This document shows, piece after piece, positions 33,968-62,213 of a stretch of DNA of 64,000 nucleotides. Where the stretch lies: positions 620,001 through 684,000 of the forward strand of contig CP039998.1 of the NCBI GenBank assembly GCA_013099015.1. The letters run 5' to 3'. Source of the stretch: Candidatus Saccharibacteria bacterium oral taxon 488. Its GTDB lineage: Bacteria > Patescibacteriota > Saccharimonadia > Saccharimonadales > Saccharimonadaceae. The notes below the pieces were generated by a model. It saw only the letters and a list, made by a program, of their open reading frames with translations, had not been told where the DNA came from and ran no database searches. A program made the translations under genes and the position numbers. How positions within the stretch are numbered: position 1 is the stretch's first letter; the number at the start of each line of letters is the position of its first letter.

Positions 33968-35491
33968 CTACTCGGTGATAACTTCAATCTCTGCACCCAG
34001 TGAATTGAGCCGCTGTGCTAGTTCCTCGTAGCCGCGATTGATTGAATACACATCGCGCAGGATTGACACGCCCGGCGCCGCTAACATGGCGAGCAGCACC
34101 ACAACCGACGGCCGCAGCGCTGGCGGTGCCACAACATCAGCGGGCTTCCACCTGGTCGGGCCAGTGATATACACCCGATGCGGATCAACCAGCTCGATCT
34201 GCGCATTCAATTTACTCAGCTCGGTGAAATAAATCGCTCGGTTCTCGTAACTCCAGTCGTGCACCAATGTCCGGCCTTTAGCGACGGTCGCAATCAGCCC
34301 CAAGAACGGCAGGTTGTCCATATTAATCCCCGGAAACGGCAGCGCGTGAATCTTGTCCTTTGGCGCAACCAACTTGGAGTGTTTCAGCGTGATATCCACC
34401 AAGCGAGTACGACCGTTGTTGGCTGCATACTCCTCACTTAACTCATATTGCAAACCCATCTCAGCCAATGTTGCCAGCTCAATTTCCAAAAACTCAATTG
34501 GTGCCCGGCGCACCGTGATTTCTGAATCAGTCACCACGGCCGCCGCGATAAAGCTCATCGCCTCGATCGGGTCTTCAGACGGGTAATAATCGACTGTCGT
34601 ATTGATGTGCGACCGGCCCGTGATTTTTAGCGTCGTTGTACCAATTCCTTCAATGGTCACGCCCAATTTCTGCAAGAAGAAACACACATCCTGCACCATG
34701 TAGTTCGGGCTGGCGTTGCGGATGATGGTGGTGTCTGGTGACAGAGCCGCCGCCATGATAACGTTTTCCGTCACCGTGTCGCCGCGTTCAGTCAATAAAA
34801 TTATCCGATCGCCCGTTGTCGGCTCGACGCGCGCATGATAGTACCCACCTTCGGCCGCTACCTGCATCCCAAAATGCTTCAGACCCGACAGATGTGGCTC
34901 CACCGTGCGCTTGCCGAGATTACAGCCACCAGCAAATGGCAACTGAAAATCATGATATTGATGAAGCAGCGGGCCAAGGAACATGATCACGGTACGCGTG
35001 CGTTTAGCGGCAGCGATATCCATATCCTCCAGCCTCAGCCGCGCAGGTGGTATAATCTCCAGGTCGTTCTTTCGCAGCCAGCGGGTCCTGACACCAATCG
35101 AGTTGAGTACCTCGATGATCCGGTTAACCTCCTCGATACGTGCCACATGACGCAAGGTCGTTTTTCCCCTGTTGAGCAAGCTAGCGCAGAGCAGCCCCAC
35201 GGCTGCATTCTTGCTCGTTTTGACCGATATATCACCAGAAAGTTTTTTACCGCCATGCACCCGAAAGTTCATCTTGCCTGAGTGATTGAGCGTAACGATA
35301 TCACAATTGAGTACATCGCTAATCCTCATTAGCATCTCGACGCTAATATTCTGACCGCCGTTCTCGATACGGTTAATGGCACTTTGTGATGTACCAATGG
35401 CCTCAGCTAGCTGTGTCTGGGTGAGGCCTTTACGATTACGATTTTCGGTGATAATAACGCCGATTTTTTGGAGATAGTCATTCATGCTCAT
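33968..35491 (-). CDS. murA: XRE-type HTH domain fused to MurA (UDP-GlcNAc enolpyruvyl transferase)
   Basis: First committed step of peptidoglycan synthesis, adding enolpyruvate to UDP-GlcNAc. About 507 residues, roughly 80 more than ordinary MurA. The extra N-terminus (about 5-70) is a complete Cro/XRE helix-turn-helix (KGLTQTQLAEAIGTSQSAINRIENG). From about residue 75 the MurA fold follows, with the N-terminal KTSKNAA element and the catalytic-loop Cys in FAGGCNLGKR, the fosfomycin target. TATATT (35504-35499) ends 7 nt before ATG 35491, leaderless. A palindrome over its promoter suggests that the enzyme binds its own control region. Confidence 0.9.
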   Translation of the reverse strand: MSMNDYLQKIGVIITENRNRKGLTQTQLAEAIGTSQSAINRIENGGQNISVEMLMRISDVLNCDIVTLNHSGKMNFRVHGGKKLSGDISVKTSKNAAVGLLCASLLNRGKTTLRHVARIEEVNRIIEVLNSIGVRTRWLRKNDLEIIPPARLRLEDMDIAAAKRTRTVIMFLGPLLHQYHDFQLPFAGGCNLGKRTVEPHLSGLKHFGMQVAAEGGYYHARVEPTTGDRIILLTERGDTVTENVIMAAALSPDTTIIRNASPNYMVQDVCFFLQKLGVTIEGIGTTTLKITGRSHINTTVDYYPSEDPIEAMSFIAAAVVTDSEITVRRAPIEFLEIELATLAEMGLQYELSEEYAANNGRTRLVDITLKHSKLVAPKDKIHALPFPGINMDNLPFLGLIATVAKGRTLVHDWSYENRAIYFTELSKLNAQIELVDPHRVYITGPTRWKPADVVAPPALRPSVVVLLAMLAAPGVSILRDVYSINRGYEELAQRLNSLGAEIEVITE

Positions 35492-35495
35492 AGCG

Positions 35496-35537
35496 TACAA
35501 TATATCACACATGATATATGTTGTAAAGTGCTATAAT
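35496..35537. promoter_or_regulatory. Divergent murA/glyA control region with inverted repeat
   Basis: ATATATC (35500-35506) and GATATAT (35513-35519) form a perfect 7-bp inverted repeat with 6-bp spacer, flanked by TACAA and TTGTA. It covers the murA -10 box (35504-35499). The glyA -10 TATAAT is at 35532-35537. A good candidate operator for the HTH part of MurA. Confidence 0.55.
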
Positions 35538-35558: not shown

Positions 35559-36830
35559 ATGCAAGATACACAGGTCGCCGATTTGATTGCGGCAGAAATA
35601 AAACGGCAGCAGTTGGGGATCGAAATGATCCCAAGCGAAAATTACGTTTCAACTAGTGTACTCAAGGCGCTGGGCAGCGTCTTTACCAACAAATATTCTG
35701 AAGGTTACCCCGGCCGGCGCTATTACGGCGGACAAGAAAACACCGACCAAATTGAACAGCTGGCGATTGACCGCGCTAAACAGCTATTCGGCGCTGATCA
35801 CGCTAATGTTCAGCCGCACTCCGGCGCCCAGGCCAACGAGGCCGTATATTATGCGTGGTGCGAGCCGGGCGATACCATTCTGGCCATGGATTTGGCGCAC
35901 GGCGGCCACTTAACGCACGGCGCGCCAGTCACCCGCTCAGCCCGCGAATATACCTTCGTCCGCTACGGCATCAAGGATGTCGAGACTGGCGAAATTGACT
36001 ATGAAGAAATTCGCCGATTGGCGCTAGAACATCGGCCAAAAATCATCTTGGCGGGCTTCTCGGCCTATCCGCGCGAGCTAGGTTACACCAAGTTTGCCGA
36101 GATTGGCAACGAAGTTGGCGCCATGCTGATGGCAGATATGAGCCACATCGCTGGGCTGATCGTTGGCGGCGTGGCTAAAAATCCGTTTGACTATGGCTTT
36201 CACGTTATCACCACTACCACGCACAAAACCTTGCGCGGCCCGCGCGGCGGCTTGATTTTGTCGAGGGGCATAGCTAGCAATCCTTTGAAACGGCCAGAAA
36301 AAACCTTGGAAAACTTGCCAACGCTGATCGACCGGGCGGTCTTCCCTGGCACGCAAGGCGGCCCACACATGCACACCATCGCCGCCAAGGCAGTGGCCTT
36401 TGGCGAGGCGCTCCGCCCAGAGTTCACGGAATACGCCCAGCAAATCGTAAAGAATGCGGCCGTGCTGGCAGATGAATTGAAACGCGGCGGCTTGAAATTA
36501 GTGACAGGCGGCACCAGCAACCATCTGGTGTTGGCAGATGTCTATGGTAGCTTCGGCATTGACGGCAAGACTGCTCAGGAGCGATTGGAGGCCAGTGGCA
36601 TCACCGCCAACGCCAATGCTATACCGAACGACACCCTACCGCCATTCCGTCCAAGCGGCCTGCGCCTCGGTACGCCAGCGGTGACGACGCGCGGCATGAC
36701 GGAGGCGGAAGTCAAACAGATTGCCGAGTGGATTATTACAGCGATAACCGCAGATGACCCGACAGAATACGCAAAAATTAAGCAACAAACTACTAGCCTT
36801 GCGGCGCGTTTTCCGCTACCATATAACTAA
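35559..36830 (+). CDS. glyA: Serine hydroxymethyltransferase
   Basis: PLP enzyme converting serine and tetrahydrofolate to glycine and methylenetetrahydrofolate. 423 residues, normal length. Starts EIKRQQLGIEMIPSENYVS; has NKYSEGYPGRRYYGG, the PLP-lysine motif TTTTHKTLRGPRGG and a C-terminal TPAVTTRGM. The ATG at 35559 has AAGGAGG immediately upstream and a TATAAT box at 35532-35537; an in-frame ATG at 35484 lies before that promoter. Divergent from HTH-murA. The pilin gene that follows has no clear promoter of its own and may be read through from here. Confidence 0.96.
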   Translation: MQDTQVADLIAAEIKRQQLGIEMIPSENYVSTSVLKALGSVFTNKYSEGYPGRRYYGGQENTDQIEQLAIDRAKQLFGADHANVQPHSGAQANEAVYYAWCEPGDTILAMDLAHGGHLTHGAPVTRSAREYTFVRYGIKDVETGEIDYEEIRRLALEHRPKIILAGFSAYPRELGYTKFAEIGNEVGAMLMADMSHIAGLIVGGVAKNPFDYGFHVITTTTHKTLRGPRGGLILSRGIASNPLKRPEKTLENLPTLIDRAVFPGTQGGPHMHTIAAKAVAFGEALRPEFTEYAQQIVKNAAVLADELKRGGLKLVTGGTSNHLVLADVYGSFGIDGKTAQERLEASGITANANAIPNDTLPPFRPSGLRLGTPAVTTRGMTEAEVKQIAEWIITAITADDPTEYAKIKQQTTSLAARFPLPYN

Positions 36831-36844
36831 TACTAAATAACTTG

Positions 36845-36993
36845 GGGGGCAAATCAGAAATGATTTCTTCAAACAAAACTAAAGGTTTCACATTGGTTGA
36901 GCTCTTGATCGTTATCGTGGTCATCGCTATCTTGGCTGCTATTTCGATTGTGGCGTACAATGGTGTGACAAATAAGGCTCGGGATGATGAGCG
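36845..36993 (+). repeat. Left arm of 149-bp inverted repeat (pilin N-terminal cassette)
   Basis: Starts at GGGGGC before the pilin ATG and runs through its first 44 codons. By direct reading it is identical to the reverse complement of 37684-37832. Confidence 0.9.
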
Positions 36994-37282
36994 AGTGGCT
37001 GATGCACGAGATATTATTAACGCTGCTGCAGTGTACAACTCAGAGAATGCCCATTGGCCAACAATATCAGAGCTAGGATCATTCAACACGGTTAAACTTT
37101 CAAATCAGACAAAGAGTCGTCTTGGAACTGTGGCACCAAGTGCAGGTGATAAGAATAAATACCAATACAAGCTGTGCGGGACTGCTCCGAATTTCACTGG
37201 GGCGAAAGTCACTTACTGGAAGGAGGTCATTAGTAGTCATGAGCACCACGAGAAAACAGTAAGCAGTGGCAGCGGTTGCTAA
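36860..37282 (+). CDS. Type IV prepilin-like protein (copy 1)
   Basis: 140 residues. A class III prepilin start with a short basic leader, cleavage site G/FTLVE and a hydrophobic helix (FTLVELLIVIVVIAILAAIS), then a variable globular part ending in a two-cysteine loop (one Cys in KLCGTAP, one at the C-terminus). Exported and cleaved by a prepilin peptidase, then assembled into a pilus. The ATG follows a G-rich AGGGGG-like site. The first 44 codons are identical to copy 2 at 37368; the remaining part differs. It lies 29 bp after glyA and probably shares its transcript. Confidence 0.9.
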   Translation: MISSNKTKGFTLVELLIVIVVIAILAAISIVAYNGVTNKARDDERVADARDIINAAAVYNSENAHWPTISELGSFNTVKLSNQTKSRLGTVAPSAGDKNKYQYKLCGTAPNFTGAKVTYWKEVISSHEHHEKTVSSGSGC

Positions 37283-37296
37283 AGAGACACGTTACC

Positions 37297-37342
37297 ATAA
37301 ATAAAATAATCCCCGACACTGGCCGGGGATTATTTTATTTAT
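37297..37342. terminator. Bidirectional terminator between the two pilins
   Basis: A perfect 19-bp stem (37297-37315 with 37324-37342) and 8-nt loop. The GC core is flanked by A/T-rich ends, so each strand yields a stem followed by a T-rich tail. It serves both convergent pilin genes. Confidence 0.85.
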
Positions 37343-37367
37343 ATTAAGAGCTCCTATCCTGCAGGGA

Positions 37368-37817
37368 TTATGAGCACTTACCAGTCTTCATGACAATCTT
37401 GTGGTTGGTCTCACCATTACCCAAAACATCTTTCCAGTAGGTAACTTTGACACCAGATACGGCAGTACCATCCATGCAGTGCGCAAAGCCAAAGAGATGT
37501 TTATGAGTATCATCTGGTTCTGGCGCTGGTGTAACCGGGCTTGCCGAACCACCAAGACCGGTTATCGCTTTCTCGGAAAGTTTAATGGTCTGGTACTTCA
37601 CTACTTCTTCGACGGTTGGCCACTTATCGTTATCTGCATTATACGAAGCCGCTGCATTCAGGATGCTCCTTGCGTCTGAAGCCCGCTCATCATCCCGAGC
37701 CTTATTTGTCACACCATTGTACGCCACAATCGAAATAGCAGCCAAGATAGCGATGACCACGATAACGATCAAGAGCTCAACCAATGTGAAACCTTTAGTT
37801 TTGTTTGAAGAAATCAT
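37368..37817 (-). CDS. Type IV prepilin-like protein (copy 2)
   Basis: 149 residues. Same leader, cleavage site and helix as copy 1, at nucleotide level identical through codon 44. The C-terminal part differs: a Pro-rich insertion (SPVTPAPEPDDTHK), and a conserved VKVTYWKDV segment between two cysteines matching VTYWKEV of copy 1. Upstream lie TATAAT- and TACAAT-like boxes (about 37846-37880), so this copy appears to have its own promoter. Convergent with copy 1; only one of the two may be strongly expressed at a time if the pair inverts. Confidence 0.9.
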   Translation of the reverse strand: MISSNKTKGFTLVELLIVIVVIAILAAISIVAYNGVTNKARDDERASDARSILNAAASYNADNDKWPTVEEVVKYQTIKLSEKAITGLGGSASPVTPAPEPDDTHKHLFGFAHCMDGTAVSGVKVTYWKDVLGNGETNHKIVMKTGKCS

Positions 37818-37832
37818 TTCTGATTTGCCCCC
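37684..37832 (-). repeat. Right arm of 149-bp inverted repeat (pilin N-terminal cassette)
   Basis: Reverse complement of 36845-36993, 690 bp away. Covers the ribosome site, start and first 44 codons of pilin copy 2. Confidence 0.9.
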
Positions 37833-38004
37833 TATTTTTAGTTAGTTATTATTGTAACTTGATTGTAACAAAGCGATTATAAAAGCGCAAGCATTTTATG
37901 AATAATTCCCTGATTCGACTCACGTTGGCCATAAAAACAGAGGTAGTACCTCAAAGCACTTCCTGCTCGAAACAGGCGTTATCCACACGACCCACCCGAA
38001 CCCG

Positions 38005-38670: not shown

Positions 38671-39061
38671 GCACCACCTCCTGCGCTGGCGTTCCATAAG
38701 TAATAATCACTGCGACGCGAATCACTGCGACGCTGTTTGGCACTTTACAATACTCGACTCGGGCACGAACCGGACTCGGTAGTATCGGTGTGGTTGGTGG
38801 CGTCACCTGTTCAGTCTTGACCGCACCACTACCGCAAACCTCGGACACCGTTTTGTATAGGCCGCGTTCACGCAGAATGCTGTATCCGATACTAGCGGCC
38901 TCCGACGTACGGCGAGCCTCAGTATTGCGCGCCAACACCGCCCCGTACAGTTGGTAACCACTCATTATAAAGATCCCGGCGATAATCAAGGTGATCATCA
39001 GTTCGACAACGGTGAAACCGCCCGCATGCTTTAGAGACGTTTGCTGTTGAGTACTTGCCAT
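38648..39061 (-). CDS. Minor prepilin-like protein
   Basis: 137 residues. Leader ending in GG/FTVVE, hydrophobic helix (FTVVELMITLIIAGIFIMSG), and a short globular domain with two cysteines (EVCGSG and EYCKVP). A 14-bp unit repeated with period 15 at 38705-38733 gives a duplicated VAVIR-like segment. It overlaps the upstream pilin gene by 31 bp and the downstream one by 23 bp, so translation of the three is coupled. Confidence 0.8.
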   Translation of the reverse strand: MASTQQQTSLKHAGGFTVVELMITLIIAGIFIMSGYQLYGAVLARNTEARRTSEAASIGYSILRERGLYKTVSEVCGSGAVKTEQVTPPTTPILPSPVRARVEYCKVPNSVAVIRVAVIITYGTPAQEVVHATYISG

Positions 39062-39618
39062 TTACCCGGCTCCTTTGTTTCTAAATGATAAAAAATCGTA
39101 TAGCGCCGACAGGCCGTACCTATCTCGTCACACACGCCACCGTAAACCCCAGCAATGTAGACGTACGCACCGTTCGGATAATTAGTAATCTTGGTGTTTT
39201 CGTAATCATCCTTCTTGGCAAACAGCTGACCCACGTTAGTGATCGGATTAACACCGAATGTACCGTTAATCGCCGATATGAGGCGTTCTCGATCCAGCGG
39301 GCCAGTCTTGGCGGCACCACCCAGTTCGTCAAACGCCGCTGCAAACTGCACCGCAGTCATCTTGCCAGCACCGCTGGCGCCAGAAACGTACGCCGGATAG
39401 CCGCCAGCAGGCTTGATGACGTTACCGGCACTGTCACGAATTTCCCGTGGATAGACGCTCTCGAGGTAGTTCTGCAAGGCTAGTACATCGGCCTCACGTT
39501 CCTTATCGCGTGCCGCCGCCTGATAATTACGAAAACTTAATGTCGCAAGCACCAGCAAAATCGCCATGACGGCAATAGCAATGATCAGCTCGACTAGCGT
39601 AAACCCCCGTCCCTTCAT
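39031..39618 (-). CDS. Prepilin-like protein
   Basis: 195 residues. A very short leader MKGRG/FTLVE, a hydrophobic helix and an alpha-beta globular part with two cysteines in VCDEIGTACRR. First gene of the three-gene minor-pilin operon. TATGAT (39630-39625) ends 6 nt before ATG 39618, the leaderless pattern, and the 6-nt gap is G-rich. An upstream in-frame ATG at 39669 would overlap murB and precede the promoter, so I reject it. Confidence 0.8.
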   Translation of the reverse strand: MKGRGFTLVELIIAIAVMAILLVLATLSFRNYQAAARDKEREADVLALQNYLESVYPREIRDSAGNVIKPAGGYPAYVSGASGAGKMTAVQFAAAFDELGGAAKTGPLDRERLISAINGTFGVNPITNVGQLFAKKDDYENTKITNYPNGAYVYIAGVYGGVCDEIGTACRRYTIFYHLETKEPGKWQVLNSKRL

Positions 39619-39665
39619 ACCCCCATCATACTCGGAAATATGCATAAGCGCAAGCGTTTTGAGAC

Positions 39666-40957: not shown

Positions 40958-40987
40958 AATACCCTGGTCGATGCTAGGGTATTTTTA
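40958..40987 (+). terminator. Terminator of the tRNA-Arg pair
   Basis: AATACCCT (40958-40965) pairs with AGGGTATT (40976-40983) and runs into T residues. It overlaps the 3' end of the convergent gene by a few bases. Confidence 0.75.
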
Positions 40988-42340
40988 CTTGAATTGCTCA
41001 GTTGTTGGCAATGCCAACTTGCCATTTGTCATATCGTTAATTGTACCTTGAAAATGATCATACGCCTCGTGTATCGATAGACTGGGGGTGATCATCTGCG
41101 GTAATTTATGAATAAAGTCCATTGCCCATTCTATTGCTTGCATACAGATGCCTTGCTCACCTTCACCAAAACTCATCAGCGTTTCTCCGCCCAGAGACCA
41201 TATCAACTCATCATGAAATACTTTCGCTGGTTGATACTCAATTTCTGCTTCGGTAACGGTCGTGAGGCGCTCTATCGTGGCATCAAACTCGCGCCGCGAT
41301 TGTCGTTGCTGTTCTTCCCGCTTTAGTCGGTCGTGTGTCTCTTTCACACCATCGAACAGCTGCAAGAAACAGTCCGCCAAATATTCATCAGTATGACTCT
41401 CACGCGCGTCCAATTGACCATCGTTAGTTTTTATGCCCATGCTAGTACGAACTTCCAGTGCGGCTCGCTCACGCCGTATTGCGTCATACTCTTGTTGGCA
41501 CTCTTGGCACTTCTTGGCAAACATAAGGGCGTCCGAGTTATATCGCGGATCTCTAAATATAAACCGAATAATATTATTGATAGTTATTATCTGTGCATCA
41601 AAGCTAAAGTTAGGGTCGACTCTGCTCGTCTCCCAAAACCACTGCAGACTAGATACCACCGGTGACGGCTTGCTCGCTCGCGCCTTGTCAATAAGGTCGA
41701 GGTTAATGGTAATGTTGTCGGGGCGTTCATGTATTACCCGACTAAGTTGTTCTACCTGCCCCTCAAGCCATTTTCTTTCAGCCAGTCGAAAACCAATCGA
41801 CCCAGCCGCACCACCCACAACAGTCCCAGCTGTCGTCAGAAATGGCTCGCCAGAACCTAGCCATGACATACCTCCACCAGCGACAAAGCTGCCAAATCCG
41901 AGAGCACCCATATCCCGTAGTGTTAGCCTAGTATGTCGATCTTCCCGAGCTATATCTTCAAGTTGCTCGACGATATTCACGAGCATAGGATCTTGGCATA
42001 TGGTAACAAAGCCCTGGCTGGAGATGCGGCCGTTATATTCAACCCTCTCAGACCCGGGGAGATCAAGAAAACACCCCCCTACAATTACCCCGTCCGCGAT
42101 AACAAAACAGGAATCCTGCACCTCTCTTGAAAGCTTCGGGTCAACCAATTCTCCATCCTCTAGCACCTTAATAGGTGTTAATATCTCCACACCCCCTCGC
42201 GGTATGGCACGACGTGTCCGCTCGGTTAGTTGCCCACTTTCATCAATAAGACCACTCTCTACAAGCCCCTCGATTGAGCTGGGCGATCGCTCTCTAACCT
42301 CACTTCCGCGCCCGAAAAAATCCATACCGCTCTTAGCCAT
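40985..42340 (-). CDS. Protein of unknown function with a glycine-rich hydrophobic hairpin
   Basis: About 451 residues. Residues about 145-190 form a Gly-rich hydrophobic hairpin (FGSFVAGGGMSWLG ... VVGGAAGSIGF). The rest is charged and mostly helical, with a coiled-coil-like segment near 335-360 and CQECQQ near 290. No family recognised. TATAAT (42352-42347) ends 6 nt before ATG 42340, so the start is well supported. It follows the Clp-like gene on the same strand with 36 bp between, but has its own promoter. Confidence 0.55.
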   Translation of the reverse strand: MAKSGMDFFGRGSEVRERSPSSIEGLVESGLIDESGQLTERTRRAIPRGGVEILTPIKVLEDGELVDPKLSREVQDSCFVIADGVIVGGCFLDLPGSERVEYNGRISSQGFVTICQDPMLVNIVEQLEDIAREDRHTRLTLRDMGALGFGSFVAGGGMSWLGSGEPFLTTAGTVVGGAAGSIGFRLAERKWLEGQVEQLSRVIHERPDNITINLDLIDKARASKPSPVVSSLQWFWETSRVDPNFSFDAQIITINNIIRFIFRDPRYNSDALMFAKKCQECQQEYDAIRRERAALEVRTSMGIKTNDGQLDARESHTDEYLADCFLQLFDGVKETHDRLKREEQQRQSRREFDATIERLTTVTEAEIEYQPAKVFHDELIWSLGGETLMSFGEGEQGICMQAIEWAMDFIHKLPQMITPSLSIHEAYDHFQGTINDMTNGKLALPTTEQFK

Positions 42341-42376
42341 GTGCCTATTATACAATATTAAATTGTATTGGCAACT

Positions 42377-47248: not shown

Positions 47249-47291
47249 GCCAACCAGATTAGGTTCACATGCAACCTTCTGCGACAAAAAT

Positions 47292-47316
47292 GCCCCCGGA
47301 GCGGAGCTCCGAGGGC
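47292..47316. terminator. Hairpin after gatD
   Basis: CGGAG (47297-47301) pairs with CTCCG (47307-47311), extended by four more pairs after one mismatch. There is no T-tract, so its role as terminator is uncertain. It marks the boundary to the mosaic right arm. Confidence 0.4.
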
Positions 47317-47331
47317 GTGTGTTCGAACAAG

Positions 47332-47976
47332 ATGAGTGTGGTCGGCTACGTCCCCTACCCCTTGAATGAGTCCTCGTTCCTCATCCAGCCGACCCTGCCG
47401 GAGCTGCAGCGGTTGGCTGAGGTGATGGGGTCGCTGCCGACGGACGCACCAGCTGGTGTCTCAGCGATGATCGAGGTAGCGGAACAGCTGCCGACGAACG
47501 CATCGGCTAACGCTGCCCTGATGATCGAGGAGGTGGCTCAGCTGGCGCCTCATGAGGCGGAGCGTGATGCTGTGCGCGTACCGAATGATGTTGCTGTGAC
47601 GTCCAAGCCGGTAATAGCTGCTATGGATGAATATCCTTGCTGCGTCAAGTCTGGGCAGCGGGACGGCACCTCGGATTCCCGTCGGGTGCGGCGCCGGCTT
47701 TCGTCTGAGGCCATTGCCCAGGTGGTGAAACGCTACCGTGCTGGAGCGACGGCAGCGGAGCTTGGTGCTGAACATGGTGTGTCAAAGAACGGCATGCTCA
47801 AGCTGCTGCGTGAGCAAGGGGTGCAGATTCGCGGCAAGTCCCTGCCGACCGCGGTCGTCACCCAAGCCATGCACTTGCACGAGCGTGGCGCGTCGATGCG
47901 TCAGGTGTCGGAGCAGCTGGGCGTCTCGCGCACCGCGCTCAGGCGGAACTTCCGGGAGATGGGGGCTGGGGTGTGA
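47332..47976 (+). CDS. HTH-domain protein, actinobacterial type
   Basis: About 214 residues from ATG 47332 (the frame opens earlier, but through a hairpin). The N-terminal 110 residues are Ala/Pro/Glu-rich with a repeated pattern (SAMIEVAEQLPT, ALMIEEVAQLAP). The C-terminus has two consecutive resolvase/Hin-like helix-turn-helix units (GATAAELGAEHGVSKNGMLKLL and GASMRQVSEQLGVSRTALRR). DNA binding is likely; whether as regulator or recombinase relic is open. Codon use is GC-rich, unlike gatD just upstream. No ribosome site is visible. Confidence 0.55.
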   Translation: MSVVGYVPYPLNESSFLIQPTLPELQRLAEVMGSLPTDAPAGVSAMIEVAEQLPTNASANAALMIEEVAQLAPHEAERDAVRVPNDVAVTSKPVIAAMDEYPCCVKSGQRDGTSDSRRVRRRLSSEAIAQVVKRYRAGATAAELGAEHGVSKNGMLKLLREQGVQIRGKSLPTAVVTQAMHLHERGASMRQVSEQLGVSRTALRRNFREMGAGV

Positions 47977-48201
47977 CGGTAGTCACGATGAGGGGTGATT
48001 GTGGATGGTTCCTCCTTGAGCTAAATCTCGCTTGAAGTACCTACGGTCGCCGGCAACTGGCTCAGCCAGCTGATGTCAATTGACTGCTGGAGTAACCACA
48101 ACAATCCTCAGTCCACGTTTGACTAGGAGGTTTACCAACCGGCCATCACTAAATTCGAACCTTCTGGTGTGACCCAACGACTGGCCGAGTACCATGCGTG
48201 C

Positions 48202-48699
48202 ATGGGATTACTAGATTTCTTTGGGAGAAAGATCCAACACCAACGTGAGTTGGAGCAGCTGTACGACCTTGGCTGTGTTGAGAGTGGACGCTCTCCGGGA
48301 GGATACTGGCGTGACTCGACCTTGAACCGCATGAGCTATGTTTCGATTGGGCGACGAGTAGTTGAAAAAGAACAGGCAAGGGTTGAGCGGGAAACAAAAG
48401 ATCGAGAGTCGCGACGACCCAAGAAGACGGAACAACAGATTCGTGCTTTGTTGGGCCAACTTGCTGCTGATAATTTTTTCGGCCCCAAGTATCGTCAAGG
48501 TAAGCAGGGGCCTCGAGGAAAAGAGGAGCGCATGTATAACGGTCTTCGGGTTCGCACAAAGAGTGGGTATAGCGTTAGCACTGACAGCTATACCACTGAC
48601 GTCATTATCATTGACCCAGAGGATAAAACCGGCAAGTGGCATTTTGTGGTTGACGAGTACGGCGAGATTCTCGTGAACGAATGGCATTCGAATAGATAG
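48202..48699 (+). CDS. Hypothetical protein
   Basis: About 165 residues, soluble, with a basic, Glu/Arg-rich central helix (about 50-80) and a C-terminal beta-rich part (SYTTDVIIIDPEDKTGKWHFVVDEYG). No family recognised. ATG 48202 follows TACCAT (48190-48195) by 6 nt, the spacing of the leaderless genes in the left arm; an alternative Met lies 11 codons upstream. Moderate GC content, unlike the flanking high-GC genes. Confidence 0.45.
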   Translation: MGLLDFFGRKIQHQRELEQLYDLGCVESGRSPGGYWRDSTLNRMSYVSIGRRVVEKEQARVERETKDRESRRPKKTEQQIRALLGQLAADNFFGPKYRQGKQGPRGKEERMYNGLRVRTKSGYSVSTDSYTTDVIIIDPEDKTGKWHFVVDEYGEILVNEWHSNR

Positions 48700-48724
48700 C
48701 TAGATACTGTATACTAGAAATGCT

Positions 48725-49000
48725 ATGCCATGCTATTACATGAGGCAAAAGATTAGCCGGATACGCGAGGAACATGTCCTTTCAGGAGTTTTTCACAGGA
48801 CGCTTATTGCAAGACTTGCTCGTCTTGAAGTGAGTGACCATTATCTTGTTTGCAATAATTGCAAGCATGATCTGCTTGTTCAGCACATCTTGGATAATCT
48901 TGTACCTGATTTAGAATGGCAAGAGTGTCCCTCTCTCAAAGATGAAATGATGTACTCATTGAAGCAGGTCTCGGACTCCCTACAGGAAAACTCAACTTGA
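48725..49000 (+). CDS. Small hypothetical protein
   Basis: 91 residues with a CNNCKHD cysteine pair that could bind metal, and otherwise helical. No family recognised. A TATACT box lies 9 nt before the first ATG, and another in-frame ATG follows five codons later. It ends 5 bp before the palindrome-ended repeat at 49006. The existence of this gene rests on the open frame and promoter only. Confidence 0.35.
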   Translation: MPCYYMRQKISRIREEHVLSGVFHRTLIARLARLEVSDHYLVCNNCKHDLLVQHILDNLVPDLEWQECPSLKDEMMYSLKQVSDSLQENST

Positions 49001-49005
49001 ACCTT

Positions 49006-49083
49006 GAGGCTTATTCACAGCTATCCTTAAGTATGCTTTGAATAGGGGTACTCTGGTTTACGCGTCGCCCATGAATGAGCCTC
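49006..49083 (+). repeat. Palindrome-ended short repeat element, copy 1
   Basis: Begins GAGGCTTATTCACAG and ends with an imperfect complement (ATGAATGAGCCTC). Closely similar over its full 78 bp to 58609-58687 in the same orientation. It has no coding capacity, and the size and ends suggest a MITE-like element. Confidence 0.7.
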
Positions 49084-49121
49084 ATGGCTTCTCCCCAAAA
49101 TCACGCTACGTGAGAGAGAAT

Positions 49122-50237
49122 CTACAAGTTTTTGCCGCGGCCCGATGCCTCGTCATACAAATAGCAAAGCAGACTCACGGCAAACAATGCACCCGTTATC
49201 GCATTGGCCTGCGTAAATTGCTGAGCACTGACCGTATGGACAGTTGCATGCCGATTAAATAGAGCTGGGATAGGGTCACCGCTCCCCGGGTAGAACTTTT
49301 GAAACGCCTGAAACATGGGGGACAGCGCCAGCCACTCCCTAACAAGAAAGTCGTCATACACAGAGAGAGCGTCCTCCATGGTGGAGTAACTAGTATATTT
49401 CTTCCGCTCCTCCTTTCCTAATATTTCAATCGTCAGAGCTTCCACCATCGACGCCGCCAACGCTTGCGCTGGCGCGTAATAGCCCTGATCAATAGACGAG
49501 ATCATCTCCAAGGCATACGCCGCTTGGTCGCGACGCTCAGGAACCTCCGACACCTCACGCAGCTTGTGGCAGCAAGCGACACGTACCTCTGCCCACTTCG
49601 AAACAAGCAGTTTACGGCGGCTATCAGCATCATCAGCCCTCAGCAGTCCTCCGGCAACCTCCTCGTCTGGCACTCCATACAACGCAATCCCATCACAAAA
49701 GATAACCTGCTGTATTTCCGAGAAGGTAAAATCCTTCAGTCTGCACAGGTTTTCGGGAAGCTGCGCCCCCGTCAAACCCTGCCAATCCAAACCTTCAAAA
49801 ACTCTCAGCCAAACGCTCTGTCGCCCAACAAACTGTCGCGTAATTTCTGAGATATCGGGCAGAACTGGCAGAAGGGCGTTCTGAATCAATTTAGCAAACT
49901 TGCTGGATTGATCCCTAAGTACATTCTGCATAGCTTCCAAGGCGCCGGCTTGCATCTTAAAGACTCCAGGATCAAAAGATTGCAAGCCTTTTTCCGCAAT
50001 CCCCTTGAGAGCTTGCGAAAGCTCATCAGAAGGCAAGTTCTTGGCGACGATAGAAGACGGTAATTCAACTGGCGCGTACACGTTCTTAGCCGGTTCAGAG
50101 TCCACAATCCTGCGGGCCATATCAGCATACGGCAAGCTTGGCACTTCAGTTTTCTCCGGATCGGTTCCGGATGACGACTTTTTGGGGCAGGACTCGGTAT
50201 CCACAAGATAAGGGTAGTGCGCAACACGTAATTTCAC
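49122..50237 (-). CDS. Protein of unknown function with C-terminal HEPN-like motif
   Basis: 371 residues, soluble. The N-terminal 70 residues look disordered and the rest is helical. Near the C-terminus FNRHATVH (Arg329 to His334) gives the R-x4-H pattern of HEPN ribonucleases, followed by a helix (NAITGALFAVSLLCYLYDEA) such as closes HEPN-type domains of abortive-infection proteins. This is a pattern match, not a family hit. Moderate GC. It lies just inside the left palindrome-ended repeat, with an XRE regulator upstream on the same strand. Confidence 0.45.
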   Translation of the reverse strand: MKLRVAHYPYLVDTESCPKKSSSGTDPEKTEVPSLPYADMARRIVDSEPAKNVYAPVELPSSIVAKNLPSDELSQALKGIAEKGLQSFDPGVFKMQAGALEAMQNVLRDQSSKFAKLIQNALLPVLPDISEITRQFVGRQSVWLRVFEGLDWQGLTGAQLPENLCRLKDFTFSEIQQVIFCDGIALYGVPDEEVAGGLLRADDADSRRKLLVSKWAEVRVACCHKLREVSEVPERRDQAAYALEMISSIDQGYYAPAQALAASMVEALTIEILGKEERKKYTSYSTMEDALSVYDDFLVREWLALSPMFQAFQKFYPGSGDPIPALFNRHATVHTVSAQQFTQANAITGALFAVSLLCYLYDEASGRGKNL

Positions 50238-50289
50238 TAAACAGAACCCGTGCGGATTGTCACGAGCATCAGTGATGTGGGCCGTCGAG

Positions 50290-50541
50290 CTACCCTTCCA
50301 TTATTAGCCCCCGCACCAGCTCCCCGGCATCCACGTCGAGGCCGCTGGCGATCTTCAGGATGTTGTGGAGGCTGAGGTTGCGCTGCCCACGCTCGACTTG
50401 CCCGATGTAGGTCCAATGCAGTCCTGCTCGTTCGGCCAAGCCTTCCTGGCTGAGCCCCTTCGCCTCCCGGGTGGCACGAACGCGGTCGCCAAAGGCCCCG
50501 GTCACGGGTGACAGGGGCGGCTTCCGCGCAGGATTGGACAC
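50290..50541 (-). CDS. XRE-family transcriptional regulator
   Basis: 83 residues, essentially one Cro/C1-type HTH (AFGDRVRATREAKGLSQEGLAERAGLHWTYIGQVERGQRNLSLHNI read as five helices, about 15-75). High GC and codon choice suggest an actinobacterial source. The start is a GTG in the longest frame; a later start near residue 14 is possible. The upstream 230 bp hold direct repeats of a GACGATNNNTCCTGT-like unit near 50578-50606, possible binding sites, and no other gene I can support. Confidence 0.7.
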   Translation of the reverse strand: MSNPARKPPLSPVTGAFGDRVRATREAKGLSQEGLAERAGLHWTYIGQVERGQRNLSLHNILKIASGLDVDAGELVRGLIMEG

Positions 50542-50776
50542 CTGTCAATCCCAGTCGCCCAAAGACGGAGTATCCAGAGACGATAAGTCCTGTGACGATG
50601 TATCCTGTTAGGACGACCGACGGAAAGGAGACCGCCATGGGTGGCGACTGACCGGCCGCATCATGGCCTCGTGGCGTGATGACAAGAGTCCCAACGAGAC
50701 AGTGAGGGAGGTGACAGCTCATGGGTGGCGAGGGATGATCCAGTAAACCTACACAACGCGTAGATGACGATGCCTG
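50542..50776. other. Intergenic region with direct repeats
   Basis: High-GC spacer. The units GACGATAAGTCCTGT and GACGATGTATCCTGT lie side by side near 50578-50606. Overlapping frames here look like chance: no ribosome site and no domain. Confidence 0.3.
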
Positions 50777-51973
50777 TCAGGCTGCTCGGGCTTGGTGGGC
50801 ATCGTCCTGCGTTGCACCAGATGATCGCTCCCGTTGCTTCTTCAGCGGCAGGTGCTCGCTCTTCAGCTGCCAGACAAAGGTGATGCCTGCTCGCGGTAGC
50901 ACCCAGCCGTCATAGCTAAAGCTGTATGACTGTGCGCCGGCCACCTCGGGAGCTTTCGCGATGCGTGCTCGCTGCGTGCTTGATACATGGTCCACCAGCA
51001 GCATCTGGGCGATCTCGGTATCACGGTAGTCCATTTCCAGCGAGAACCCGCGAACCGGCCGGTCAATGTCGAAGTACACCATGTGGCCGTCCCGCCGTAG
51101 TCGTGACCGGTACGTGAACGACATGACCACGGGCTGCTGAGCGGTGACGATATCCTCACCAATGTCAACCGTGTAAATCTGACTGTGTGTATCGGCGGTG
51201 CGTTCAATTGAGACCGGGCTACCATTCACGCTGAACTCAACCAGGGCGAAGCTCGCTTCGTCGGTCACGTCCAGACCAGTGCCGGATGGCTTGAACCACA
51301 CACTCGTCTCCCCACGCTCAGCCACCATCTGGTCATATCGCTGCCGGTCTGAGACCACAGCAAACTTCCGGAACCGGTGCTTGGGCACGACGGTGTATTC
51401 CCAGCGGACCAGTAAGTCAAAGAAAGGGTTAGGAGCTACGCTCCTAACCCTAGGTATACCTAGGGTCGCGTCGACTCGCGCGTCATACCAGCGCTCCTCG
51501 GCCGTGATCGCCTGGTGCTTAATGTCCCCATAGACTTCCCGCCCGAAGGCCGTATCGCCAAAACGCATGCCCAAACTGTTGACCGCCAGCTCGTCCAACA
51601 GCCGGGGCGTGGCAATCCGCCTGAGATCCTGCGTGTCGAAGCGAAACCCCTCAATCACCGCATCCCGCATCGCCGGCGCCTCATCGTGAATGATCTGGCG
51701 GAACTGGCGAGCGGTGGCAGCTTCCTGATCTTTGCGGAAGGAGTATTCAAACAACGTACCGAGGAGCCCGGCACCAAACAGCGTGCCGCCTAGCTCGCCC
51801 AGTGGCAGTGCGTGCAGCCACGACCAGTCGCCGAGATTGAGGCCAGAAAGCCAGCCATTCAGCATGATGAGCAGCACACCAGCTAGTGTCAGCGCTGTCG
51901 CGAGAAACGCCGCTTTGGTCTTGCGGAGACGAGCGTGAAGCGATGGCTTGTTGTCGGGATTTGGGTGGGGCAT
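50777..51973 (-). CDS. Two-helix membrane protein, function unknown
   Basis: 398 residues. Two transmembrane helices (about 20-45 and 58-80) are followed by a large soluble domain of about 310 residues, rich in beta strands toward the C-terminus (VRGFSLEMDYRD, YSFSYDGWVLPRAG). High GC, actinobacterial style. Codons for TLGIPRVRSVAPNP come from a palindromic DNA element inserted in frame at 51426-51465. A TATAAT sequence lies 11 nt before the ATG. No family recognised. Confidence 0.6.
   Translation of the reverse strand: MPHPNPDNKPSLHARLRKTKAAFLATALTLAGVLLIMLNGWLSGLNLGDWSWLHALPLGELGGTLFGAGLLGTLFEYSFRKDQEAATARQFRQIIHDEAPAMRDAVIEGFRFDTQDLRRIATPRLLDELAVNSLGMRFGDTAFGREVYGDIKHQAITAEERWYDARVDATLGIPRVRSVAPNPFFDLLVRWEYTVVPKHRFRKFAVVSDRQRYDQMVAERGETSVWFKPSGTGLDVTDEASFALVEFSVNGSPVSIERTADTHSQIYTVDIGEDIVTAQQPVVMSFTYRSRLRRDGHMVYFDIDRPVRGFSLEMDYRDTEIAQMLLVDHVSSTQRARIAKAPEVAGAQSYSFSYDGWVLPRAGITFVWQLKSEHLPLKKQRERSSGATQDDAHQARAA
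51426..51465. repeat. Palindromic element inside a coding sequence
   Basis: Two adjoining palindromes: GGGTTAGGAGC (51426-51436) with its complement at 51440-51450 around a 3-nt loop, and the 18-bp CCCTAGGTATACCTAGGG at 51448-51465. The element stays in frame and is translated. Confidence 0.7.
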
Positions 51974-52075
51974 TGCTGGTTATGATTATATACCAGAATG
52001 AAGTGCCCGCATAGGCTTTATGCTATTGCCCAAGGTGGCTATTTCGCGGTAAAATAGATACAAGGAGGATATTAT

Positions 52076-52441
52076 ATGGACGAAATATTGGCGAAGATTA
52101 ATACATTGACAGAGCAGATAGACAAACGCTTTGAAGCTATGGACAAGCGCCTGAACGATCTCGAGAAAGGCCAGGCCGCTATCCGCAAAGACATCAAGAA
52201 CAGCGACGACATCTTCCAGCTGTTTGAACTGAAGACCGATCATAATTTCAAGAAAGTCATGGCCACCCAAAGTGACCTCAAGGCTGAACTGGCTTCGCTG
52301 CGCACCCGCTTATTCCTCGAGGAAGACTCTCGCGAGCACGCCGACACAGTTGGCTGGGACACTCAGGACAAGAAATGGCGAGCGCTGGACAAGCGGCTGC
52401 ATGTGGTTGAGGCTCATCTGGGGCTTGAGTCGGCGGCTTAG
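52076..52441 (+). CDS. Coiled-coil protein, function unknown
   Basis: 121 residues with heptad-like spacing over most of its length (INTLTEQIDKRFEAMDKRL, then LKAELASLRTRLF). Highly charged, no transmembrane segment, probably an oligomeric helical rod. AAGGAGG lies 7 nt before the ATG, one of the better ribosome sites in the right arm. Similar in style to the next gene. No specific family recognised. Confidence 0.6.
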   Translation: MDEILAKINTLTEQIDKRFEAMDKRLNDLEKGQAAIRKDIKNSDDIFQLFELKTDHNFKKVMATQSDLKAELASLRTRLFLEEDSREHADTVGWDTQDKKWRALDKRLHVVEAHLGLESAA

Positions 52442-52463
52442 GGGCGTGATATCAGCGCGTAGC

Positions 52464-52721
52464 ATGAATGATGAACAAGCACTCAAGCTCTACCGCCTCA
52501 TCAAAGATGATATGGATGCCCTTGAGAAGCGTATGAACAATCGGTTTGACGCAGTCGAGCAACAGATTGATGATGTACGCGGGCATATTGATCATCTATA
52601 TGGCGAACAACAGGCGCGTGAAATTGAAGAGAGCGCCATTGGTCATCAACTTGGTCTCCATGAAGAATGGATTGAACAGGCAGCACCCAAGGTGGGTGTA
52701 GCGTATCGGCGAGCAGCGTAG
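52464..52721 (+). CDS. Small coiled-coil protein, function unknown
   Basis: 85 residues. The central part (DDMDALEKRMNNRFDAVEQQ) resembles the repeat region of the preceding coiled-coil gene, so the two may be diverged paralogues. The frame extends upstream through the previous gene in another phase; ATG 52464 is the first start after that gene ends. No clear ribosome site. Ends 26 bp before an IS5-like transposase remnant. Confidence 0.5.
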   Translation: MNDEQALKLYRLIKDDMDALEKRMNNRFDAVEQQIDDVRGHIDHLYGEQQAREIEESAIGHQLGLHEEWIEQAAPKVGVAYRRAA

Positions 52722-52746
52722 GTAGGTAGGAGGTTCGAGCCTTGGG

Positions 52747-52935
52747 GTCAAGTGGTGGCAGTGGCAGAAAACATTCAATGCCACGATCGCCAGCCTCAGA
52801 GCCGGAATCGAACACTGCATCGCCCAACTCAAAAACTGGAAAATCCTCAAAACCGGCTACCGAGGACCACTCCACGAACTTCCCAACATCATCCAAACGA
52901 TCACAAAACTAGAACTCTACAGACTCAGCTGGTAA
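52747..52935 (+). pseudogene. IS5-family transposase remnant (C-terminus)
   Basis: One frame reads FNATIASLRAGIEHCIAQLK, then NWKILKTGYRGPLHELPNII, to a TAA at 52933-52935. This matches the C-terminal helix and Glu of IS5-type (DDE_Tnp_4-like) transposases (ERxIAxLKNWxIL). The N-terminal two thirds are missing. A GTGAATAACC string just after the stop may be the old element end. Confidence 0.65.
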
Positions 52936-52954
52936 CCCTCGTGAATAACCCCCT

Positions 52955-53140
52955 AAAGAGTTCAGACGGCGGATCGTTTTGAAGGTTATTGGGAAGTCTC
53001 GCATGATTAGTGACGTAGCGAAGTCTTACGGTCTGGCCACGCAAACCCTGGGAAACTTGGTGCGTCAGGTCATTGCTGGTCTCGCTTCGGTTCCGCGTTA
53101 TCTCGGGAGGATCAGTTATCGCGTCGCGCTGGTGAAGTGA
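52955..53140 (+). pseudogene. IS3-family OrfA remnant
   Basis: One frame reads KEFRRRIVLKVIGKSRMISD followed by VAKSYGLATQTLGNLVRQ, the N-terminal HTH of IS3-type OrfA, then departs from the family and stops at TGA 53138-53140. No start, no OrfB. Its 3' end overlaps the end of the helicase gene on the other strand. Confidence 0.6.
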
Positions 53141-55613
53141 ACCTGTTGGTGAAGTCTTTGGCTGTAAGTCCGAACGAGGCGAGTAACTGCCCGACGCCAG
53201 CCGCGTCGCGGAAGGTGTCGTTCGCAGCAAGAGCAATCGCATAGTTATGCATGGCGCTGCGGAGGGAGTCTAGCTTCTCCTTGGTGACGACACGACAGCC
53301 GATCGGGACGGCAGCCTTCTTGTCGAATACCGCGTTAGCGTGCACCAGCACTGGCGTCGCAGCGGTCTTCGTGCCGTACAGCTGCCGGAACCAGTCCATC
53401 GCGTTGGAGAGTTGCTCGGCGTGTTTCTTGTAGACCGGGTTCGACTCCTTTACTTGGTTCTTAGCTTCGATGATGTGGAAGGACCTATCAGTCAGTGCCC
53501 ACAGGTTGTCTGGTCCACGGCCGGTGTCCCGCTCGGGACGCTGGCCGTTGAAGCCGATATGATCCGCCAAGTTGTGCCATGCCTGTTCGAAAGCTTCGGC
53601 GCGCACATTCCACGAAAGGTCCTCCAACAGCGCATTGACACCGAGCCGCAACTCGTTGCCGGAGGTGTAGCGTTGTTGAAGGCTGGCTGATGCCGATGCG
53701 CCTTGCTCCAGCGTCGGTGCCGACAGCTTTTCGTACTCGACGCCTTCCATAGGGCGCAGGACACTGCGATTCTTCCGGTTCGCCGACTTCTGGGTCTGCT
53801 GAGCCTGAACAGGGTTGATGTGATGCTCGTAGGCAGCGTACTGCTGCAGCACGTAGCCTTCCTCAGCCGAGCCGTCCGCGGCTTCGACTGCCCGCCGCAT
53901 CGCTTTCAGCGCAGCGTTGAAATCGCCAGCGACAGCATGTCCGAAGGCTTCGCGGCTGACCACCGATAGCTTACTGACGTTGGCCTGCTCGTATCGCAGC
54001 GGCGCAAGGGTGGTACGGCTGATCTCTAACCATTTTGGATCACGGTTGAGACACTGGAGGGCAGCCTCCTTCAGCGCATCCAGGCCTGTACCTTCCAGCT
54101 GCGCTGCGATCTTTTCGGACAGCTCGAGCTGAGCGCGGGTGGCGGGGGAAAAGCAGTCGCGAGCTCCGTTCCCGTGCAGGCGCTCAGCCAGCCGGTTGCC
54201 GAGCAGGAAGATGACACAGTGGTCGTCGTTGGAGCGTGTCGCACGGCCCATCCCTTGTTCAAGCCGCTGCACCTGTCGCGCCACCAGTAGGCCGGAGCCT
54301 GCCAGTTGCGACTGGTCGACTCGTTCTGTTCCTGACATGGCCTCAGGAAGACCGTCGACCACGAGAACGTGACAGGCGTCGCCGGGGAGATCTACGCCGT
54401 CGTACCGATTAATGAGAACGGCCAGACCCAGGTCGGGGTTCTGACGCAGTTGGTCGATGCCCCGCGTCAACGTGTCCTTGGTTAGGACAGACTTGGCGTA
54501 GGGCCGCCAGTACTCCGCTCTACGCGTGCTCGGTACGATTACGACGATGTTGCGCGTGGCGGCAAGGTCGACGATGAGGTCCCGGATTTCATCGTCGGTT
54601 GCTGTGGGGTGTGTCTGCTGTGGGACGAGGATCAGACGATCACCGATATCGCCGGCATTGGCCGGCGTTATCGGATCTGCCACGGCTTTCGGGTCGGCAC
54701 CTAGGTGCCTTACCAAGATGCCGTCGTCGGCGAGCGTTGCCGTCAAATAGATGCGGCGCTCGGCCTGGCTGAACCCGGTAACGATGTCGGAAGGCAGGCA
54801 CGGCGCTTCGATCTCAAGTGCGTCGGAGGTAAACACCGCGCGGGAGATTGGCAGTGCATCAGCGATGAGCGGCCACGAGAACTGATAGTCGTCTTCGGTC
54901 GTCAGGGGCTGCAGGGTGGTGATGACCTCGCGCTGCTTCTCGGCCCAAGACCAATAGGGGACCTGTTGAACACCGCTGCTCGACTTTGCCTTGAGCGCAA
55001 CGAATCCGGCTGGCGACTGATCTTCGAGCGTTGACTCAAACAGCGCTAGGAGCTTGTCGTAGGCGTCATGCTCGCTCGGGATAGCGAGCCGGAAGGCCTG
55101 CTCAGCCTTGTTTAGGCAAGCGTGGGCGTCATCAATGATGACAGTGTTAGGACAGCGAACTGAGGGCAATCGCCCAACGTTCCCGCCGACGCCGAAGACA
55201 GACTTTCCGTTGAACAGTTTCTGGAAGGTGTCAACCAAGATGGCTGACCCTTGGGAGTAGGCGAAGGTTTTGGGGTCGTTAACCACGCAGATACCAAGTT
55301 TGTTGGCCTCGGCGATGACTTGGTCTACGAGGTATTTATCGGGGACCAGATAGGCGACGGGACCGTTACCTTCGGCGAGTGAACTCTTGGCGATGAGCAG
55401 ACCGACGACAGTTTTACCCCCACCGGTGTTGAGTTTGACCACCACGTCTCGCTGTGACCGCCGAGCGAACCACTTCTCTAGGACCTGATCCTGTGGGCCC
55501 CGGAGGAAATTCATTCCGGGCGGTTTGGTAGGAAGCGCGTTGAAGATGTCGCGCGGGTCGATGAGTTTATCGGCAGTACGCGGCTGCTTCAACGCTCCGA
55601 AGTCGATGGCCAT
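53112..55613 (-). CDS. DEAD/DEAH-type helicase fused to PD-(D/E)XK nuclease-like domain
   Basis: About 833 residues. The superfamily 2 helicase core has Walker A NTGGGKTVV (TGGGKT 63-68), a DDAH box (161-164), LTATL as motif III and QRLEQGMGRATRS as motif VI. After a linker of about 200 residues the C-terminus carries GPDN ... FHIIEAKNQ (Asp702, Glu716, Lys718), the PD-(D/E)XK pattern of restriction-type nucleases. It probably unwinds and cuts DNA, and a defence role is plausible. ATG 55613 is preferred: TATCAT ends 6 nt before it. High GC. IS remnants flank both sides. Confidence 0.8.
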   Translation of the reverse strand: MAIDFGALKQPRTADKLIDPRDIFNALPTKPPGMNFLRGPQDQVLEKWFARRSQRDVVVKLNTGGGKTVVGLLIAKSSLAEGNGPVAYLVPDKYLVDQVIAEANKLGICVVNDPKTFAYSQGSAILVDTFQKLFNGKSVFGVGGNVGRLPSVRCPNTVIIDDAHACLNKAEQAFRLAIPSEHDAYDKLLALFESTLEDQSPAGFVALKAKSSSGVQQVPYWSWAEKQREVITTLQPLTTEDDYQFSWPLIADALPISRAVFTSDALEIEAPCLPSDIVTGFSQAERRIYLTATLADDGILVRHLGADPKAVADPITPANAGDIGDRLILVPQQTHPTATDDEIRDLIVDLAATRNIVVIVPSTRRAEYWRPYAKSVLTKDTLTRGIDQLRQNPDLGLAVLINRYDGVDLPGDACHVLVVDGLPEAMSGTERVDQSQLAGSGLLVARQVQRLEQGMGRATRSNDDHCVIFLLGNRLAERLHGNGARDCFSPATRAQLELSEKIAAQLEGTGLDALKEAALQCLNRDPKWLEISRTTLAPLRYEQANVSKLSVVSREAFGHAVAGDFNAALKAMRRAVEAADGSAEEGYVLQQYAAYEHHINPVQAQQTQKSANRKNRSVLRPMEGVEYEKLSAPTLEQGASASASLQQRYTSGNELRLGVNALLEDLSWNVRAEAFEQAWHNLADHIGFNGQRPERDTGRGPDNLWALTDRSFHIIEAKNQVKESNPVYKKHAEQLSNAMDWFRQLYGTKTAATPVLVHANAVFDKKAAVPIGCRVVTKEKLDSLRSAMHNYAIALAANDTFRDAAGVGQLLASFGLTAKDFTNRFTSPARRDN

Positions 55614-55829
55614 AGTCAGATGATATCCCACCTCAATGATCTTTGGGAGCCCCTACAACGGCGCAGGAGCTTTGGGTGTAGGTCAACGAGTCGAACTCGC
55701 ATTTGTGGGGTCTATTCTGGGCTGGCGTCCGGCGCCGAGGGGTATGTGGTGGAGTTCGGGATTAGACGTGATGAACAACTCGAAGTTGATCGAGTGGAAC
55801 GCCTTGGTGTCAAGTGGTGGAAGCAACAA

Positions 55830-56874: not shown

Positions 56875-56893
56875 TGTTACTACGACCCTATGA
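56851..56893 (+). repeat. Target-site duplication, left copy
   Basis: 43 bp beginning AACAACCCCCTCCCTGACAA and ending CTATGA, repeated at 58515-58557 with a single A/G difference. Long, variable duplications are a known trait of IS1634-family insertion. Confidence 0.8.
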
Positions 56894-58514: not shown

Positions 58515-58557
58515 AACAACCCCCTCCCTGACAAGCACTGTTGCTACGACCCTATGA
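58515..58557 (+). repeat. Target-site duplication, right copy
   Basis: Partner of 56851-56893, one mismatch in 43 bp. It carries the outer end of the interrupted IS30-type element. Confidence 0.8.
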
Positions 58558-58608
58558 CACCACCAACCACAGTCAACACCATCGCAGGAATCATCTTCGG
58601 GATTCTGT

Positions 58609-58687
58609 GAGGCTTATTCACAGCCATCCTCAAGTGCGCTCTGACTAGGGATTTCGCTGGTCGACGCGTCGCCTGTGAATAAGCCTC
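58609..58687 (+). repeat. Palindrome-ended short repeat element, copy 2
   Basis: Starts GAGGCTTATTCACAG and ends with its exact complement CTGTGAATAAGCCTC; the last 12-bp motif is repeated once more at 58688-58698. The interior matches copy 1 at 49006 closely. Together the copies bracket 9.5 kb. Confidence 0.75.
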
Positions 58688-58747
58688 TGTGAATAAGCAT
58701 CGTGGTAGAAAAAGACTTGGAGATGGCTGTTAAATAGGTTCAAAAAA

Positions 58748-60386: not shown

Positions 60387-60392
60387 TCGCAG

Positions 60393-62027: not shown

Positions 62028-62213
62028 ATGAAACCTATCCGATCTAAAATCAAAAATTACACTTACCTGCAAAATATGCAATACGTTGTTTGGCGAATAA
62101 AGCTGGTGTCAAAAATCGGCTACGCTTAAACTCCGTCCTGCTGGGGGTGGTGCAATGTTGACAGCAATTGTTCGGATGGAACTACTTTAGAATTAATCTA
62201 AATAGTTCCCTGC

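Follow-up and report, generated by a model that had tools for sequence, protein, structure and literature searches.

Two pilin genes of Candidatus Saccharibacteria bacterium oral taxon 488, referred to hereafter as pilin A and pilin B, stand in inverted order and begin with the same DNA. Do they form a switch in which recombination flips the DNA between them, or has recombination only kept their fronts alike? We examined the pair within its 64-kb surroundings on contig CP039998.1 (positions 620,001 to 684,000; this whole stretch of 64,000 nucleotides is called the window). The comparisons argue well for recombination between the two fronts, and the inverted order suggests that the DNA between them would also be flipped at times. 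Coordinates of the features are collected in Table 1.

Two type IV pilins with a shared front

The first-pass annotation had described the shared fronts as perfect inverted arms of 149 bp that cover the ribosome site, the start and the first 44 codons. This is exact: the arms were identical after reverse complementing, and the match extended by 0 bp outward or inward. When 20-base blocks were compared in register, the seven full blocks of the arm agreed at 20/20 positions and the six immediately outside at 3-8/20, and no 18-mer of the arm occurred elsewhere in the window. A chance origin of the match is excluded. Each arm consists of 15 bases upstream of the ATG, including the ribosome site, 44 codons and two bases of codon 45. 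Scripted reversal of the interior returned exactly the same two proteins with their loci exchanged, so that the predicted in-frame swap of the C-terminal halves holds. A bidirectional terminator had also been proposed for the interior. A strong hairpin does separate the two stop codons (its arms at 37292-37315 and 37324-37347; -27.1 kcal/mol, z -6.0), but it was absent from the output of a simple terminator scan.

Both genes encode type IV pilins and are pilA paralogues of a Saccharibacterium; the lysM-TM7 RNA is present in the window. The prepilin methylation motif PF07963 exceeded its cut-off in each protein, and profile searches showed kinship to solved type IV pilins in the N-terminal helix region (20 PDB sequences, E <= 0.001). 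The pilin A model (mean predicted local distance difference test, pLDDT, 79.2) has a single long helix at residues 12-63 and three strands; a Foldseek search with this model gave no match at E <= 0.001, so that the fold of the tail is only predicted. The arm boundary at residue 44-45 falls within the long helix. The leader and the larger share of the hydrophobic assembly part are encoded by the arm, everything after by the tail.

To place the pair, the locus was compared with 11 related loci chosen from search matches. All 11 have murB, 10 have the minor-pilin-like genes (L039 does not) and 10 have glyA (L041 ends before it). A single pilA convergent with glyA was present in five loci (L001, L002, L043, L044 and L046), of which L001 and L002, both Saccharibacteria metagenome-assembled genomes, are the nearest named DNA relatives of the window. 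Another five (L038-L042) carry two pilA genes in direct order, and L045 has one pilA, adjoining murB. In a wider search of 394 genomes with the first 60 residues, 142 gave matches; the 150 matches listed include 21 pairs of neighbours no more than 2 kb apart, spread over nine genomes, and the two genes share a strand in all of them (0 pairs on opposite strands). Since pilin B, on the minus strand, matches the relatives' single pilA in place and orientation, gene order identifies it as the resident pilA of a conserved murB-pilins-pilA-glyA locus and pilin A as a backwards extra copy.

The two copies are also unequal in their promoters, as had been claimed before. The pattern TTGYGY-N17-TACAAT is common to pilin B and its orthologues in three relatives (L001, L002 and G116), begins 73-74 bases 5' of the start codon and has one match in the whole window. 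A sigma-70 scan did not list this promoter, whose -35 box agrees with the consensus at 3/6 positions. The region upstream of pilin A, which is the end of glyA, gave no match to the conserved pattern; pilin A is otherwise complete, with ribosome site, start and stop all present. Because the arms end short of the promoter, a flip would not move the promoter but would put another tail behind it, and it would matter because the conserved promoter stands on the pilin B side and none stands at pilin A behind glyA. Among the direct pairs of relatives, L038, L040 and L042 have a promoter-like match at both pilA copies.

Other conserved elements were seen at these starts. A GCTTGYG element 60-75 bases before the pilA start, then a -10-like box, recurs in L001, L002, L039-L042, L044 and L046, and a AGGGGGCA-like ribosome site recurs at pilA of many relatives, these same loci among them. 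The front of each arm (36845-36870 on the plus strand, 37807-37832 on the minus strand) can fold into a start-codon hairpin, GGGG.AAAUCA-GRRA-UGAUUU.CUUC, which encloses the ribosome site and start and also occurs in L001 and L002 (-7.1 kcal/mol; z -2.4 to -3.3 in three sequences). This stretch is almost constant in relatives, whereas the remaining pilin front drifts, and translational control of pilA through the hairpin is possible.

Recombination between the pilin fronts

The identity of the arms contrasts with the divergence of the tails. Pilin A and pilin B use the same codon at all 44 arm positions (44/44). Beyond the arm, identical residues share a codon at 1/11 positions within codons 45-60 and at 14/29 later, 15/40 in total. 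Had the arm drifted like the tails, the chance of 44/44 would be (15/40)^44 or about 2e-19, an illustrative figure on the assumption of independent codons. Across those 44 codons, relatives differ from the window at 18 (L001), 18 (L002) and 16 (L003) synonymous positions, although the ribosome site and first six codons are nearly constant in the three (L001 has a single base change upstream of the ATG). In a tree built from a chosen set of 31 tails, the bootstrap of which had not fully settled, tail A grouped with proteins of other contigs in a 9-row clade (98/100), and tail B joined P0001 and P0006 (98/95). As the two tails fall in separate clades, the A/B split is older than the A clade, and the arms were equalised later. 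Taken with these old tails, the codon pattern indicates that the arms were equalised recently by recombination, and recombination between the fronts of pilin A and pilin B is thus well supported by sequence comparison. Recent duplication, considered as the cause of arm identity, was rejected by the codon pattern and the tail tree.

A-type proteins elsewhere begin slightly differently; P0034, for example, has 42/45 N-terminal residues as in pilin A. A-type N-termini of this kind fit conversion of A by B, and an ancestral state could look alike at the protein level. In P0122, from another contig, the first residues join a tail-A pilin exactly where the arm would end. These residues resemble a translated Illumina adapter, and P0122 is perhaps an assembly break at the arm edge.

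Conversion, inversion and other explanations

Pilin genes in direct order show what can happen to fronts where inversion is impossible. We examined 17 loci of relatives; 13 gave 18 comparable neighbouring pilin pairs and four had only one recognised pilin. Fronts were fully equalised in 3/18 pairs and partly in 2/18. The fully equalised pairs are in G086 (36/36 head codons identical, 212-bp exact run), G037 (36/36, 123 bp) and G034 contig 4 (34/36, 173 bp), and their tails have diverged. The partly equalised pairs are in G119 contig 41 (30/33 residue-identical codons, 65-bp exact run) and G066 contig 21 (27/36 head codons). All five are direct pairs at the pilA locus; in the remaining 13/18 pairs, most of them tightly spaced pilin genes at other places, 6-23 head codons are identical. 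The relatives' direct pairs resemble the window in having two pilA genes at the same murB...glyA locus, with identical 5' ends in four of the five, and differ in their order: from the geometry, a crossover between direct copies would delete one of them, whereas between inverted copies it would flip the interior and keep both. Judged from these alignments, pilA 5' ends have been equalised repeatedly, and inversion is not required for it. Because the same equalising occurs where a crossover cannot invert, arm identity by itself shows gene conversion and not a switch. The earlier interpretation as a pilin switch is partly supported: it stands as to anatomy, in-frame tail exchange, promoter asymmetry and the absence of an adjacent recombinase, and recombination between the arms has strong support, but arm identity is evidence of conversion.

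On balance we lean, by a modest amount, towards homologous recombination that both keeps the arms alike and flips the 690-bp interior between unequal addresses, changing the abundant tail. Two anciently diverged pilA paralogues stand in inverted order, and homologous recombination between their 5' parts, most likely dependent on RecA, keeps the 149 bp identical. Given the inverted arms, those events that resolve as crossovers would flip the interior. The flip would exchange the C-terminal tails between the pilA locus with its conserved promoter and the site behind glyA, which lacks that promoter. The expected outcome is a slow, reversible change of the abundant tail subunit, with the other tail perhaps expressed at a low level through glyA read-through. 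The simplest agent is homologous recombination. The long inverted homology that such an inversion requires is present, 149 bp and exact, and RecA was found in 3/3 related genomes. On this reading homologous recombination maintains the likeness of the arms and probably also inverts the segment now and then. A pilin switch maintained by selection is unproven, and on/off or antigenic variation of the pilus might follow from the exchange. We put forward only tentatively the further idea of a switch that lacks a dedicated recombinase, in which tails would shuttle between promoter-bearing and promoter-poor addresses and alter the host-facing pilus, the inverted order permitting repeated recombination with no loss of a copy.

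Several observations weigh against flipping as part of this picture. Direct pairs equalise their 5' ends without inversion, and an inverted pilA pair was found in 0/11 related loci. P0019 shares 99% identity with pilin A but has another residue at position 2. The N-termini of P0033 (A type) and P0069 (B type), possibly from one genome, differ, so that equalising of fronts is not universal. Flipped DNA was not seen in the relatives' DNA searched, which lacked close relatives with both tails. A search for the opposite orientation gave two loci in the genome contig collection, both single-copy, and no match in viral contigs or phages. Whole-genome matches at the limits used numbered 11/394, 3/9, 5/392 and 5/249 (overlapping sets), none above 62% identity; there was therefore no tail-A orthologue among them.

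If only non-crossover events took place, gene conversion would equalise the 5' parts and the inverted order would be a duplication accident with no role in switching. The three direct pairs with 34-36/36 identical head codons and diverged tails suit this explanation, as does the failure to see flipped DNA. However, the promoter asymmetry suits a switch, and inverted 149-bp arms less than 1 kb apart are expected to yield crossovers as well in a RecA+ cell. We consider conversion alone a possible but somewhat doubtful account. Another way to keep the copies alike without recombination would be selection on the arm DNA itself, for example on RNA structure, and the almost unchanged ribosome site and first six codons of L001-L003 do fold into the start-codon hairpin. 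For most of the arm, the codon comparison rejects this explanation, since relatives differ at 16-18 synonymous codons over 44 and pilin A and pilin B at none; we regard it as exceedingly improbable.

Pilin inversion in Moraxella is reportedly a site-specific system with Piv, and an invertase of this sort might flip the segment here. The layout is indeed alike, with two pilin tails in inverted order (PMC9585708). That no recombinase lies next to the segment had been stated in the first-pass annotation, and a Pfam scan agrees: no recombinase or transposase catalytic domain was found in any open reading frame (ORF) of at least 200 aa lying wholly or partly in 26549-47976. PF01548, the Piv-type domain, was found in 0/3 related genomes. 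The search for a site-specific recombinase beside the arms thus gave none, with two caveats: a protein at 47269-47976 has helix-turn-helix (HTH) matches only, HTH_7 of resolvases among them, and a DDE transposase lies at 56909-58411, 19 kb from the segment. An invertase is very unlikely. Little more can be said for an assembly artefact, one of the arms being a duplicate that the assembler made or that arose from a chimera. Identical arms do trouble short-read assembly, but P0019, on another contig, joins tail A to nearly the same front (44/45 residues), P0001 has tail B with an identical front and the two tails differ throughout, which makes such an artefact highly improbable.

The surrounding genes include some further features. 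The product of 33968-35512 is a MurA-like enzyme of the EPSP synthase fold that carries an HTH_3 DNA-binding domain at its N-terminus, and L001 and L002 have proteins of the same start and length class. A 456-aa ORF at 40985-42355 adjoins the gene for a Clp-type AAA protein and has no Pfam match at 1e-3. The right end of the window (47269-63191) has the look of a mobile or defence island; in addition to the HTH protein and the DDE transposase it holds a helicase at 53112-55631 that matches the PADLOC candidate PDC-S28 (4e-301) and a phosphoesterase at 60393-62081.

Table 1. Features of the inverted pilin pair and its neighbours (positions in the window)
Feature	Coordinates	Strand	Basis
glyA	35559..36830	+	SHMT PF00464 1.3e-154; ends 29 bases upstream of pilin A start codon
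Left arm: ribosome site, start and 44 codons of pilin A	36845..36993	+	Exact 149-bp inverted copy of right arm
Pilin A, 140 aa, extra copy behind glyA	36860..37282	+	ORF; N_methyl PF07963 8.9e-09; tail in 9-row clade
690-bp interior flippable by arm crossover: tail A, hairpin, tail B	36994..37683	.	Script reversal
Hairpin between stops, likely terminator for both strands	37292..37347	.	24-nt arms, 92% complementary; fold
Pilin B, 149 aa, resident pilA	37368..37817	-	ORF; N_methyl PF07963 9e-09; conserved place and orientation
Right arm: ribosome site, start and 44 codons of pilin B	37684..37832	-	Exact 149-bp inverted copy of left arm
Pilin B conserved promoter TTGCGC-N17-TACAAT, outside arm	37862..37890	-	Same layout in L001, L002, G116
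Minor-pilin-like gene, 230 aa	38005..38697	-	GFTLIE motif, conserved place; no Pfam match at 1e-3
Minor pilin, 137 aa	38648..39061	-	N_methyl PF07963 5.5e-05
Minor pilin, 198 aa from later start	39031..39627	-	N_methyl PF07963 5.3e-07

Meaning and comparison with known systems

In the open-licence literature of PubMed Central (PMC), no such switch was found for Saccharibacteria or Patescibacteria; the papers listed deal with other subjects (DNA methylation in archaea, an assembler, a secretion system's VirB2 pilin arrays and a hypervariable gene, based on repeats, in a Gracilibacterium). A switch here, if true, would within the reach of that literature be the first by DNA inversion to be described for Patescibacteria, and gene-poor episymbionts could vary their host-facing surface with no enzyme dedicated to the task. 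Modular evolution is plain to see here whether or not the segment flips, since pilA 5' ends are equalised again and again as their tails drift apart. Direct and inverted pairs at one conserved locus also offer a natural comparison of a deletion-prone with a flip-prone geometry.

Tail exchange would matter because type IV pili promote host binding and competition in Saccharibacteria. In the study of Nanosynbacter lyticus TM7x (PMC12206443), pilA2 promotes both, each being reduced on its loss, and pilA1 could not be deleted. Its main text has no mention of duplication, phase variation or paralogues, and the parts consulted show no inverted pair (PMC12206443). The pilins of both organisms are saccharibacterial. 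The effect of pilA2 loss makes it plausible, provided that the loci correspond, that exchange of the tails would affect host contact.

The closest analogue is found in Moraxella, where exchange of pilin tails by inversion is already known; reads in both orientations are reported for M. bovis and M. lacunata (PMC9585708; PMC4073114). The likeness lies in two pilin tails in inverted order that a flip would exchange in frame. Unlike in Moraxella, each copy in the window has a ribosome site and start of its own, the arms measure 149 bp, no invertase was found and flipping is unobserved. In Neisseria, the pilS donor cassettes for pilE lack a promoter and 5' end. Pilin A differs from such silent cassettes in being complete, though it has no conserved promoter. 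In the sap system of Campylobacter fetus, inversion occurs between the homologous 5' ends of opposed surface-layer genes and involves RecA, although it is also said to occur without RecA. The window shares with sap the homologous 5' ends of opposed surface-protein genes. In sap the segment that moves carries the promoter, whereas here the promoter would stay and the tails would move.
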